A DNA stretch of 41,604 nt. Origin: an uncultured Chlorobiaceae bacterium. Lineage in GTDB: Bacteria > Bacteroidota > Chlorobiia > Chlorobiales > Chlorobiaceae. Where the stretch lies: the NCBI GenBank assembly GCA_903940125.1, contig CAJAJL010000021.1, positions 1 through 41,604 on the forward strand, written 5' to 3'. This document shows, piece by piece, positions 18,619 to 32,428 of the stretch (the first letter of the stretch is position 1; the number at the start of each line of letters is the position of its first letter). The notes beneath the pieces were generated by a model that had not been told where the DNA came from, did no database searches, and saw only the letters and a list, made by a program, of their open reading frames with translations. The position numbers and the translations under genes were made by a program.

Positions 18619-18730
18619 ACCATCATCATTCCCGGTAATTACTCCGGGATGGAATTGGCACCACTCATCGTGTAATGACGGTTGCCAAGGCTTCTCAGGG
18701 CCAGTCCCTCCACCTTTCTGGATGATAGCT
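18619..18730 (-). ncRNA. SAM-I riboswitch (S-box) upstream of metY-metX
   Basis: Read on the minus strand, the sequence contains the S-box core: AGAAAGGTGGAGGGACTGGC, then CCTGAGAAGCC, TTGGCAACC and, further on, GGTGCCAATTCC. P1 is formed by ctatcatc (around 18729-18722) with gatgatgg (18627-18620), including a G-U wobble. A P4 hairpin, tcccgg/ccggga, lies between. The order and spacing match class I SAM aptamers. It senses S-adenosylmethionine and should repress metY-metX when SAM is abundant. The aptamer lies close to the divergent rsmB gene. Confidence 0.95.
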
Positions 18731-27887: not shown

Positions 27888-28682
27888 TCAGGGAACCAAA
27901 GTATCTTTAACTGTCTTAACTGGTTCAATTTTTGGAACTTGAACTGGGCGTTTACGATACCTCTTTGACCAGCCCTGTATAGTATAGGCTTTAAAAGTCT
28001 GCGTAGCTACAACAACACCTGTGATTTTCACATGTTTTCCAGGAACTAGCCGAGTACCGGGGCGCACCTCGGTATTGCTCATATCAATCTGCCATATATT
28101 TTTGTTAAAGTCTTTTATAATAAGACGATTTTTATCTTTTAGGTACTGAATAACTTTACCTCCGAGCAAACCTTTTTCTGCATGCGTCCAGCGGTGTTCA
28201 TTGGCGTAGACCAGCTTGTTATACACATGAACATTTTCAATAAGATAACGGTGGATAACCTTGCCTACATCGATCGTGTTCAATCCGACACTTAGTAAAA
28301 GACTTGCAAGAAGAGCACCTGCAATAACTTTTGTTGTAGCATACCGATAGCCTGTTTTAGTATGCCTGAATCCAAAATAGGCAACAAGGGTGAACAGCGC
28401 AAGAGTTGCCAGCCATATATAGGGAATGCTTGCCACAATTTCGGCAATCATGGGTCGCTCTGCTAAAAACAAGTGGATGTATTCATGATCTTCAATAAAA
28501 TCGTTATCAATGAACACATAAATAGCTGTTGCCATCGCAATACTCCCTGTTAAGACAGAGATTGCTGCAAGCAGCCAAAAACCAAATCGCTGAAGAACAA
28601 AGTGCCACCTCGGAATAGGCACTGCTTTTCTTTTTTCGATTTCATCCAGAATGGATTTTGATCTGTCCTTAAGCATAATCAT
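27888..28682 (-). CDS. Three-helix membrane protein paired with an ECF sigma factor; candidate anti-sigma factor
   Basis: This 264-residue protein begins 5 bases after the sigma factor gene. A short cytoplasmic N-terminus (~1-30, charged, with 'PRWHFVLQ') precedes three hydrophobic helices (~32-56, ~84-106, ~116-135). A C-terminal beta-rich domain (~170-235) is OB-like in pattern ('RPGTRLVPGKHVKITGVVV'), and the tail is Lys/Pro-rich. The block 'IPYIWLATLALFTLVAYFGFRHTK' reminds me of uncharacterised membrane proteins next to sigma factors in other phyla, but I could not check this. It lacks the zinc-binding HxxxCxxC of ZAS-type anti-sigma factors. Sequestration of the sigma factor at the membrane is inferred from gene order only. 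Confidence 0.6.
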   Translation of the reverse strand: MIMLKDRSKSILDEIEKRKAVPIPRWHFVLQRFGFWLLAAISVLTGSIAMATAIYVFIDNDFIEDHEYIHLFLAERPMIAEIVASIPYIWLATLALFTLVAYFGFRHTKTGYRYATTKVIAGALLASLLLSVGLNTIDVGKVIHRYLIENVHVYNKLVYANEHRWTHAEKGLLGGKVIQYLKDKNRLIIKDFNKNIWQIDMSNTEVRPGTRLVPGKHVKITGVVVATQTFKAYTIQGWSKRYRKRPVQVPKIEPVKTVKDTLVP

Positions 28683-28687
28683 AATAT

Positions 28688-29269
28688 CTAACTCTCTTCT
28701 AAATAACTTTTTATCTTTTTCTTTGCACGATTAATCATTGTAGCAACAGTTCCTTCCGGTATCTGTAAAATATCTGATATTTCTTCGTACCGCTTTTCTT
28801 CAAAGAATTTCAAGACAATGATTTCACGACTCTTTGGATCAAGGCGCTCAACTGCCGTTTGTATTTCCGCTGCTGAATGCTTTTGACCATCCTGATCTGT
28901 CAGTTCCAAATCATCAGCCACTTTATCAAAAAGAAATAAATCTCCCTCTCTCTCTAATACAATCGGGCCATTCTTTTCCTTTCGAAATGAGCTGATTATT
29001 TCATTATGTGCGATTCTGTAGATCCATGACGAAAACTGAAGTGAATGATCGTAATCATTGAGATGAACGTAGGTTTTGATGAAAATCTCCTGCAGCAAAT
29101 CCTGCGCTGTACTGGTATTCCTGCATCCCAAACGGGTTATATATCGTAAAAGTGGTGCTTCATAGCGACGAACGATTTTGGCAAACGCCTGTTTATTTGC
29201 AAGCGTCTGGGTAACCAGATCCTGATCGGTGTATTGCTGCTGTTCTTTATGTCGTGAAGTATCGGCCAT
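28688..29269 (-). CDS. ECF-type RNA polymerase sigma factor
   Basis: This 193-residue sigma-70 family protein has region 2 (~25-97: 'DLLQEIFIKTYVHL', then 'FSSWIYRIAHNEIISSFRK') and region 4 (~130-190: 'RLDPKSREIIVLKFFEEKRYEEISDIL' and 'IPEGTVATMINRAKKKI'). It lacks regions 1 and 3, as is usual for extracytoplasmic-function sigma factors. An acidic linker of ~30 residues joins the domains. It is co-transcribed with the membrane protein at 27888. The promoters it recognises are unknown, and no auto-regulated promoter could be identified upstream. Confidence 0.93.
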   Translation of the reverse strand: MADTSRHKEQQQYTDQDLVTQTLANKQAFAKIVRRYEAPLLRYITRLGCRNTSTAQDLLQEIFIKTYVHLNDYDHSLQFSSWIYRIAHNEIISSFRKEKNGPIVLEREGDLFLFDKVADDLELTDQDGQKHSAAEIQTAVERLDPKSREIIVLKFFEEKRYEEISDILQIPEGTVATMINRAKKKIKSYLEES

Positions 29270-29383: not shown

Positions 29384-30634
29384 TTAATCTAATCGAGGCT
29401 TGACTCCCTTGATATCATGAAAAGACACAACACCAAGCATGTAATCGTTTTCATCAGTTATCGGTATAGCCCGGAAAGAGTAACGGAAAAACATATCTAC
29501 CGCATCCTGCAGGGTATCATCCGGATTAAGGGATATAATACTGTCTGTCATAATCTCGCCAAGTGTCTTCTCCGGTTCAGCTGCAATCAGTTCCCTGAGA
29601 TCGACAACACCTTGCAAGATATTCTCTTCATTGACAACATAGACATACATGATGACATCCATATCACCGGCTACTTCACGATAATTGTTAATGACATCCC
29701 TGACCACAGTGGCAGGTGATCGTTTGATAACCTGCTGCGTGGAATAAAGCATGATGTTTTCATCGTGCTGATCAATAATCTGCTGTACCCTCTGTTTGTT
29801 TTCACTGTCCACAAACTCGATAATTTCATCGGCTTCCGATGCGGGCAGCACCGAAAGAATATCAGCAACCTGAGCAGGACTCATTTCATTGATTAATCCG
29901 GCAGCACGCTCTTTTTCCATTGAGCGGATAAGTTCACGCTGCACTCTCGGCTCAACTTCTTCCAAGGTATCAGATGCCAATTCCGGTTCGATTTGATTGA
30001 ATACTGCCATACGCTGACTGCCCTCAAGCTCCTCGAGAATATCAGCCAGATCTACAGGATGGATGTCGTTGATATTTTCCTTGAGTACATTGAGCTTGAC
30101 ATTGCCATCAAAGCTACCGATTGTATCGGGCAACGGCTGTACATAGAGCCATGAGATACTGGATCCCTCTTTGTATTTTGCTAAATAATTCGCAAGCTTC
30201 TTAAAACCCATCCGCCGGAGAATACGAAAACGATTGAAATCTACCTCAGTAACAAAAAGCCGTTCGTTCTGAAACAGAAGCTTGACATCATAGACCACTT
30301 CAACCTCGTGGCCATCCATATCAAGGATCTTCTTGTCAAGAATATAGTCTTTCAGGAAAATATGATTATCAAGGGGGTTCAGTTCGTATCCTTCGGTACT
30401 GACAATTTCCGATACAATTTCAGTGTTTGAAATCAGGGTGATTTTATCCCATGGAATTAAAAGACGAGGATCACCGTAAGGCTGGTGAACCAGAAGATGG
30501 GTAACTTCAGGGATTTTTCCGGCGTTCTCCTGTATAACGAGATCTTTAAGCTTGCCGATTGTGCGCGTTTTCAGATAGATGCGGCGGCCAACAATCTCAC
30601 TCAAATAAAAATCACGATCAAGTACTGTAACCAT
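29384..30634 (-). CDS. PRC-barrel / MgtE_N / CBS-pair cytoplasmic protein
   Basis: This 416-residue soluble protein has two PRC-barrel-like segments at the N-terminus (~8-70 and ~88-150), an MgtE_N superhelical domain (~185-285: 'HPVDLADILEEL', 'MSPAQVADILSVLPASEADEI') and a CBS-domain pair (~290-412: 'MYVYVVNEENILQGVVDL', 'SFRAIPITDENDYMLGVVSF'). In MgtE channels this MgtE_N/CBS unit senses cytoplasmic Mg2+ and gates the pore. Here it is separate from any channel and lies in one operon with an NRAMP protein, so it may regulate that transporter. The transmembrane domain of MgtE is absent. Confidence 0.88.
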   Translation of the reverse strand: MVTVLDRDFYLSEIVGRRIYLKTRTIGKLKDLVIQENAGKIPEVTHLLVHQPYGDPRLLIPWDKITLISNTEIVSEIVSTEGYELNPLDNHIFLKDYILDKKILDMDGHEVEVVYDVKLLFQNERLFVTEVDFNRFRILRRMGFKKLANYLAKYKEGSSISWLYVQPLPDTIGSFDGNVKLNVLKENINDIHPVDLADILEELEGSQRMAVFNQIEPELASDTLEEVEPRVQRELIRSMEKERAAGLINEMSPAQVADILSVLPASEADEIIEFVDSENKQRVQQIIDQHDENIMLYSTQQVIKRSPATVVRDVINNYREVAGDMDVIMYVYVVNEENILQGVVDLRELIAAEPEKTLGEIMTDSIISLNPDDTLQDAVDMFFRYSFRAIPITDENDYMLGVVSFHDIKGVKPRLD

Positions 30635-30647
30635 TGGTGTTTCCCTT

Positions 30648-30824
30648 TTATAAAACCTTGATAACAGTGATGAATTTGTAAATCATCAATAGCACAAGTA
30701 CAAAAAGATAAATCCTGAGTACCGCCAGTGAAAAACTGACCCCTTTTGACATTTCGATTTTCGGTTTGGCATAACGCTGGTTGATCTCACGGATCTTGCT
30801 GATAAACTGTTTGAGCATCCTCAT
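30648..30824 (-). CDS. 58-residue single-span membrane protein between NRAMP and MgtE_N/CBS genes
   Basis: This short gene lies between the NRAMP gene (16 bases before) and the CBS protein gene (13 bases after). The start ATG at 30824 is preceded by a 'gaggg' Shine-Dalgarno at suitable spacing. The product has a basic amphipathic N-terminus (~1-28, many Lys/Arg) and one hydrophobic helix (~31-56), ending with a Lys near the C-terminus. I do not recognise the family. Operon position suggests a small accessory subunit that may link the soluble sensor to the transporter. Confidence 0.7.
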   Translation of the reverse strand: MRMLKQFISKIREINQRYAKPKIEMSKGVSFSLAVLRIYLFVLVLLMIYKFITVIKVL

Positions 30825-30840
30825 GATCTGATACCCTCAA

Positions 30841-32109
30841 TTACTTGAAAAGATTAGGGAAAAGCGCACTTATGCCATACAACGTGGACAGTATAATAAT
30901 TAATACAACGATCATAGTACTGACAATATTCTGCAAAAGGGTATTGGCATACTCCCCCATTGTCTTTTTATCGTTGAGCAGCAAAATCAAAAAAACAAGC
31001 GCAGCGGGAAGCAGAGTCACCGCGACAACCTGAACAAAAAGAGTGATGAGCACAAGGGGTGCTCCTGGTATAAGAGGAACAACACCGGCAGTCGCCAGAG
31101 TAATAAAAAACGAAATATAGAACCAGGGAGCTTCCTTGACCTTGGTGTTCAGTGAGTGTGCCCATCCGAAGATTTCACCGAACGCCCACGAACTGGCCAG
31201 CGAGATACAGATTGCCCCAAGCAATCCGGCATCAAAAAGGCCAATTGCCATGAAAGCACCGATATAGTGATTGGTTTTCATCAGCATTCGGGCAGCTGTT
31301 GCGGCATCATCGATTGGCGCACCATGCAGGAGAGTCCCTGTTACAATGACAATGAAAATCGCCACTGCAACCGTGATAATTGAGCCGATAAAGGTATCGA
31401 GTTTACCCATTTTAATATCTTTCTCCAGCAAGCCTTTGTCGACAACAGAGCTCTGCTGAAAAAACAGCATCCATGGTGCAATAGTCGTACCGATATTGGC
31501 CATAAGCAGAAAAAACAGCTCATTATTAAAGCCACCGGGGAGATTTGGAATCAGCCCCTGACCAACTATGCTGGCAATAGAAGGGTTGACCATGAATGCC
31601 GCCGGAATATAAATCAGGTTCAGCAGACAGAATCCCAAAGCAATTTTTTCCCATGTCCAGTATCGTCCATTGAGAACAATAATACCCATGAGCAGCACGA
31701 CCAGAATTACAGTCAACCAGGCAGGAACTCCGAAAATGCTTAACGCTGCCGTCATGCCGACAAATTCAGTGACCAGCGTCAACCAGTCGACAATCATGAG
31801 ATCAATCAGAGAAAACCATCCCCAGAAAGCACCGAAACTTTCAAATATTGCCTCGGCATGACCTCGTTTTGTCACAGCGCCAAGCCGAACTGTCATCTCC
31901 TGGACATAGTATGCAACTGGAATAAGAAGTAACAGAAACCATATAAGGTGATAACCATATTGAGCACCTGTAGCCGCATAGGTAGTAATGCCTCCAGCAT
32001 CATTATCAGCAATCATCACTACAAGACCCGGTCCTGCAATAACCAGATAAAGGCGAATCGCTTTCCAGACTTTTTTAAACCGGTAGTAGAGAACGGAAAA
32101 GATATCCAT
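30841..32109 (-). CDS. NRAMP-related transporter with altered metal-site motifs (NRMT-like, probably Mg2+)
   Basis: This 422-residue protein has the SLC11/NRAMP fold with about 11 membrane helices. The helix-1 metal motif DPGN of Mn/Fe NRAMPs is replaced by DAGG (residues 37-40, in 'ADNDAGGITTYAATGAQYG'), and the helix-6 motif MPHN by APWM (211-214, in 'GTTIAPWMLFFQQSS'). Loss of the Met that selects for soft transition metals is a hallmark of NRAMP-related Mg2+ transporters. The neighbouring MgtE_N/CBS gene supports a role in Mg2+ uptake. A GTG start at 32196 would add 29 residues; neither start has a clear ribosome site. No M-box riboswitch was seen upstream. Confidence 0.8.
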   Translation of the reverse strand: MDIFSVLYYRFKKVWKAIRLYLVIAGPGLVVMIADNDAGGITTYAATGAQYGYHLIWFLLLLIPVAYYVQEMTVRLGAVTKRGHAEAIFESFGAFWGWFSLIDLMIVDWLTLVTEFVGMTAALSIFGVPAWLTVILVVLLMGIIVLNGRYWTWEKIALGFCLLNLIYIPAAFMVNPSIASIVGQGLIPNLPGGFNNELFFLLMANIGTTIAPWMLFFQQSSVVDKGLLEKDIKMGKLDTFIGSIITVAVAIFIVIVTGTLLHGAPIDDAATAARMLMKTNHYIGAFMAIGLFDAGLLGAICISLASSWAFGEIFGWAHSLNTKVKEAPWFYISFFITLATAGVVPLIPGAPLVLITLFVQVVAVTLLPAALVFLILLLNDKKTMGEYANTLLQNIVSTMIVVLIIILSTLYGISALFPNLFK

Positions 32110-32428
32110 ATCCGTTGAGTTGGACGTTGACGAAACCCGGCATTGATATTCAGAAGGAAAGGACAGGTATCGAACTAACCAGTGTTCAATTGTCACCGGT
32201 CGATCTGGCGCAAATTTACAACTCTATGCTCACTTTACAAAGTCGTTTTAACATTCTCTGAAACAGAGAAACATAAGCACTATACCATAGATGAGGTATT
32301 TTTTAATAATCACTTGCAAGCTCCTCATATATTGATCTTTATTAGCAATCCGGATGACTCGACTCACTGCGCAAAGTGATACCCCGCAACACAAATAAAA
32401 CACTTGATCCAAAAGGAAAAAATTATTC

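Follow-up and report, generated by a model that had tools for sequence, protein, structure and literature searches.

Mg2+ import by relatives of the NRAMP metal transporters is recent knowledge, and the control of such uncoupled transporters is a current question. Shin et al. (2014) reported that most nrmT genes adjoin a gene resembling the cytosolic domain of MgtE, sometimes under the control of an M-box, and proposed that the product of this MgtE-like neighbor provides cytoplasmic feedback (PMC4072509). The NrmT of Acidobacterium capsulatum, which has an MgtE-like neighbor, fully rescued Mn2+ transport and weakly rescued Mg2+ transport, and co-expression of the MgtE-like gene caused no change (PMC4072509). 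The metal-site signature DxxG-TxxA characterizes the NRMTs, of which EleNRMT carries Mn2+ too (PMC8806188).

The locus described here lies in the window, the 41,604-nucleotide stretch of an uncultured Chlorobiaceae genome that was analyzed. It encodes an NRMT-like transporter, a 58-residue small protein (SP), and a protein with MgtE_N and CBS domains (CBS protein). The initial annotation had inferred that an Mg2+ sensor was moved to a separate subunit that gates the transporter. The putative sensor is indeed encoded by a separate gene and has no channel domain, and physical gating is a step that we infer. However, a separate MgtE-like sensor beside an NRMT is a rediscovery, because Shin et al. 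(2014) had already paired nrmT with an MgtE-like feedback gene (PMC4072509). Two parts of the trio represent a pairing known from the sister lineage, and SP is the reason why the finding merits attention.

Gene content of the operon

The three open reading frames (ORFs) are tightly spaced, lying 16 and 13 bp apart (Table 1). In Pfam searches, the transporter ORF matched Nramp (1e-76), the 58-aa ORF had no match, and the 416-aa ORF matched PRC, MgtE_N (8e-23), and, once, CBS (5e-15), with no Pfam match to the MgtE channel domain in the 416-aa protein. The tight minus-strand trio reported by the initial annotation was thus recovered with matching domains. The transporter start was assigned to the ATG at 32109; a GTG at 32196 was rejected because the conserved protein starts at the ATG. 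The same gene order was found in 20 of 20 same-genus loci. In a wide scan of one genome per species, of which the best 80 loci (L056-L135) were examined, the order was kept in the 79 closest loci, several of which are cut by contig ends, and the most distant one carries the same genes in another order. In view of this recurrence, the trio arrangement is not due to chance. The survey of co-occurrence that the initial annotation had called for therefore found the neighbors beside orthologues in related genomes. The trio is followed, also on the minus strand, by genes for an ECF-type sigma factor and for a membrane protein, both of which show synteny in some members of the genus. A SAM riboswitch is located elsewhere in the window.

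Table 1. Coordinates of the operon and of other features mentioned in the text
Feature	Position	Strand	Basis
Operon, in the order transporter, SP gene, CBS gene	window, 29384-32109	minus	
NRMT-like (SLC11/NRAMP-related) transporter, 422 aa	window, 30841-32109	minus	Pfam, PDB sequence and fold matches, tree
SP, 58-aa single-span membrane protein	window, 30648-30824	minus	conservation, linkage, pN/pS
PRC-barrel, MgtE_N and CBS protein, 416 aa, without channel domain	window, 29384-30634	minus	Pfam, MgtE homology
Operon 5' leader	window, 32110-32246	minus	alignment across same-genus loci
ECF-type sigma factor and membrane protein	window, 27888-29269	minus	
SAM riboswitch	window, 18620-18728	minus	far over Rfam threshold
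SP locus without CBS gene, Acidobacteriota	L186:11-2762		
SP locus without CBS gene, Acidobacteriota	L233:2942-5540		
Second M-box, Geobacteraceae assembly	L093:6793-6960		

The operon leader is alignable over up to 67-137 bp across the genus loci despite differing flanking genes, and 67 bp of it show about 87-90% identity in many of them. A riboswitch in the window leader was considered and rejected, since the leader had no riboswitch match in Rfam, showed a weak consensus fold (-4.0 kcal/mol), and is unique in the genome. A possible short upstream ORF in the leader (MPGFVNVQLNGYGYLFRSLLPV) overlaps the transporter start and is broken in L055.

The signature DxxG/TxxA is present in the transporter as D37-A-G-G40 in helix 1 and T208-T-I-A211 in helix 6. 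Compared with the classical NRAMP/MntH motifs, DAGG and APW replace DPGN and MPH; the sequences DNDAGG and GTTIAPWM agree with the initial reading of DAGG and APWM in place of DPGN and MPHN. The best PDB sequence match was EleNRMT (7qia; E 6.6e-67, 37% identity), and the MntH entries ranked behind it (E 1.4e-17). EleNRMT was also the top fold match of an AlphaFold2 model (pLDDT 83.6, pTM 0.85, 11 predicted membrane helices), and the equivalents of its conserved Asp, helix-3 Glu, and helix-10 Gln are kept in the window transporter. In a tree of 79 proteins, built by a quick method that gives the deepest splits no firm order, the SP-bearing transporters formed one clade (SH-aLRT 100), and an adjacent clade (SH-aLRT 95) held EleNRMT and the SP-less NRMTs. 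The window transporter fell outside the EleNRMT-containing clade and was separated from MntH by long, fully supported branches. Because of this placement it is called NRMT-like, not NRMT, and regarded as a sister lineage to the EleNRMT clade. A tree including NRMTs had been called for at the outset; no grouping with Mn/Fe transporters was seen in it, and EleNRMT is far closer than MntH.

The window genome encodes two more NRAMP-related proteins: one is of the classical MPHN type, and the other, the third relative, is of a different type. In the genus, this third relative (DDPSG / TTISPYLFFW type) adjoins a P-type ATPase gene (G007:C29, G015:C3, G027:C79, and, in the window genome, G000:C20); several genomes have a second CorA gene there as well.

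About 230 residues of the CBS protein are homologous, by sequence and fold, to the cytosolic domain of MgtE (2yvy, E 7e-26). The protein matches an MgtE-like regulatory fragment in carrying MgtE_N and CBS domains without a channel. The MgtE ligand residues named in PMC5882242 were compared in 42 relatives of the CBS protein. Position E59 is D or E in 39 of the 42, D95 is D in 39, and D247 is D in 41; D91, D226, and D250 are not conserved. A changed ligand set is expected, because the plug helix of MgtE, which shares several of the sites, is missing from the CBS protein. The CBS protein is a likely, though putative, Mg2+ sensor.

The small membrane protein and its distribution

Within the genus, the SP ORF showed a pN/pS of 0.17 at a dS of about 1.1. 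The 58-aa ORF is therefore a genuine gene, one under purifying selection. The consensus of SP is KIREINxKYxKPxIxMTxxVKxSLLxLRxYLxxLVxLLxYKFITL, and Tyr18, Leu36, Arg37, Tyr39, and Phe51 are invariant in 22 diverse members. None of these 22 proteins had a match in Pfam or NCBIfam, an SP profile matched no PDB chain, and a literature search, whose coverage of subscription papers was sparse, yielded no description. SP appears to be an undescribed conserved family and the part of the trio that is new. Its conserved part consists of the membrane helix and the inner edge, which are strongly constrained over very large distances. The N-terminal segment is positively charged and predicted to be cytosolic by the positive-inside rule.

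SP was found near the transporter in all of the best 80 wide-scan loci, and the taxa carrying it in the scan include Chlorobiota, Pseudomonadota, Nitrospirota, Acidobacteriota, Bacteroidota, Patescibacteria, methanogens, and a Micrarchaeota assembly. All informative loci of the transporter clade (121 of 121) contain SP; the sole locus of the clade without it, L234, is truncated at the edge of its contig and hence not informative. On the other hand, SP was present in none of the 24 sister NRMT loci sampled. Each of 30 diverse carrier genomes has one clear copy at the trio, and one of them has a second, distant copy, also beside a transporter relative. No SP away from such a transporter was found in the genomes and contexts inspected.

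When 247 genomes were sampled from the phylum to which a trio-bearing Acidobacteriaceae genome belongs, the arrangements formed a graded series (Table 2); L135 of the wide scan is also type II. In type II, most of the N-terminal segment of SP is lost and the CBS gene is still present, and at L186, L233, and L235-L237 SP is kept with no CBS gene nearby. Because SP persists with a changed gene order and an absent CBS gene, it follows the transporter, not the sensor. A role of SP in linking the sensor to the transporter, which the initial annotation had considered, would fit the type I gene order, in which the SP gene separates the other two, and the putatively cytosolic N-terminal segment of SP. 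Such a coupler is disfavored by the type II and type III arrangements, and we regard it as very unlikely.

Table 2. Gene arrangements around SP-bearing and ordinary NRMT-type transporters
Arrangement	Genes	Transporter identity to window
Type I	transporter, SP, CBS gene	65-98%
Type II	transporter, CBS gene, SP shortened to membrane core	56-61%
Type III	transporter, SP, no CBS gene nearby	42-45%
Ordinary NRMTs	CBS gene upstream in 17 of 24 loci, SP in none	33-39%

Very small membrane proteins can act as turnover or assembly-type factors, as MgtR does on MgtA or MgtC. SP might likewise help to assemble, target, or turn over the transporter instead of being a stable subunit, and sequence cannot separate the two. 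The constraint on the helix and the inner edge fits a lasting contact better, although it is not decisive, and we consider a transient role possible but rather doubtful. Positions conserved in SP-bearing transporters only are clustered where helix 2 ends, where helix 3 begins (Asp103 included), and where helix 8 ends and runs into the next segment, a region that includes His318. Asp103 in TM3 occurs in all aligned SP-bearing transporters and in 0 of 19 SP-less ones, and Arg37, inside the membrane span of SP, occurs in 118 of 121 SPs. Since Asp103 marks the SP-bearing transporters and SP has a membrane Arg, a contact of SP near transporter helix 3 is plausible. A strict Arg37-Asp103 salt bridge is a suggestion at most and is not supported, because three type II SPs are without Arg37 and their partner transporters retain Asp103.

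Neighbors at the type III loci include genes for DtxR/MntR-type (L186, L233) or CsoR-type (L235, L236) repressors, which suggests that these Acidobacteriota SP loci serve other metals. The wider SP clade is for this reason not tied to Mg2+, and SP is probably not bound to one metal. Some of the repressor-adjoining Acidobacteriota relatives have GENDGPS/GATVTPWM metal sites; no such NRMT site was found described in the literature consulted.

We lean slightly toward the conclusion that SP founds a new family, namely obligate single-span subunits of one deep SLC11-related clade of bacteria and archaea, acting with Mg2+ and, judging from the neighboring regulators, other metals. To our knowledge, no subunit of this kind was previously known for SLC11-family transporters, and SP would, if this is true, be the first. 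The searched family databases missed SP despite its strict linkage in bacteria and archaea. It can serve as an annotation marker that sets the SP-bearing clade apart from other NRMTs, and its presence may be required for proper expression or reconstitution of the clade's transporters.

Trio transporters from different phyla, and even from different domains, share 65-80% identity (L056-L135), and many of the records come from lakes, peat, and sediments. These results suggest that the operon as a unit may often be transferred horizontally.

Metal specificity and proposed function

Genomic associations point to Mg2+ as the substrate, as had been proposed initially. M-box riboswitches scoring far above the threshold are located 300-650 bp upstream of four trio operons (L093, L113, L115, and L128), and two lineages (L055/L059 and L117) have a gene for the MgtA pump next to the trio. 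In 65 same-genus genomes, mostly metagenome assemblies, CorA was absent from 21 of 39 trio carriers compared with 3 of 26 non-carriers (p=6e-4), and MgtE was absent from 13 of 39 compared with 2 of 26 (p=0.018), both p values ignoring shared ancestry. Three carriers that are 98-100% complete (G016, G205, and G223) have no recognized CorA, MgtE, or MgtA, and the trio is their only recognized Mg2+ importer. In the window genome, one CorA and one MgtA passed the cut-off; no MgtE channel gene was found in it, and no M-box was found upstream of the window operon.

A second M-box lies directly after the CBS gene of L093 and precedes genes for an outer-membrane porin-like protein and a CDF-type transporter, which hints at an Mg2+-controlled porin.

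The initial annotation had connected the operon with the Mg2+ demand of bacteriochlorophyll synthesis. This driver was rejected, because the trio is missing from 26 of the 65 same-genus genomes and many of its carriers come from lineages that are not phototrophic, methanogens and Patescibacteria among them; the distribution of the trio does not track phototrophy.

The A. capsulatum and EleNRMT precedents (PMC4072509; PMC8806188) and the repressor genes beside the CBS-less SP relatives would also fit an operon that mainly imports Mn2+ or a broad range of divalent cations, with a CBS protein that senses Mn2+ or adenine nucleotides, not Mg2+. This is unlikely given the four M-boxes, the adjacent MgtA genes, and the replacement of CorA and MgtE in the genus; furthermore, a classical NRAMP of the MPHN type is encoded separately in the window genome.

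Taken together, the operon probably encodes a three-part Mg2+ uptake system composed of the transporter, SP as a subunit, and the CBS protein as an Mg2+ feedback sensor. The NRMT-like protein would carry hydrated Mg2+ via a widened NRAMP metal site. SP would be a single-span accessory subunit, probably packed on the membrane surface of the transporter and stabilizing or tuning it, and the cytosolic PRC/MgtE_N/CBS protein would throttle uptake when cellular Mg2+ is high. The model is based on homology, signature residues, clade membership, linkage, gene-order changes, and the associations with Mg2+ riboswitches and importer loss. From these we infer physical assembly, the exact role of SP, and gating by Mg2+. 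Operons of this type offer a compact system whose pore, small partner, and sensor can each be removed separately.

Comparison with known systems

MntH and DraNramp share the superfamily and the fold of the window transporter, which is, however, without their metal-site Met, Asn, and TM6 His. MgtE (2yvy) and the CBS protein have in common about 230 homologous residues with acidic residues at E59, D95, and D247; the CBS protein differs from MgtE in having neither the channel, the plug helix, nor D91, D226, and D250, and in its extra N-terminal PRC region.

The NrmT and MgtE-like fragment pairs, such as those of Clostridium acetobutylicum (Ca_c0685, Ca_c3329; PMC4072509), resemble the window operon in that an NRAMP-related transporter is paired with a homologue of the MgtE cytosolic domain, some of the operons are M-box controlled, and a feedback role has been proposed. 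In contrast, no small membrane protein was described for these pairs, and the window transporter belongs to a separate sister clade. Unlike in the window, the MgtE-like gene is located upstream of nrmT in the example from A. capsulatum, as it is in each of the 17 SP-less loci that have one. EleNRMT of Eggerthella lenta (7qia; PMC8806188) is equal to the window transporter in its fold, 11 helices, DxxG/TxxA signature, and conserved Asp, Glu, and Gln. It groups, however, with the SP-less transporters and is without Asp103 (Ala there), His84, and His318, the residues that mark the SP-bearing clade.
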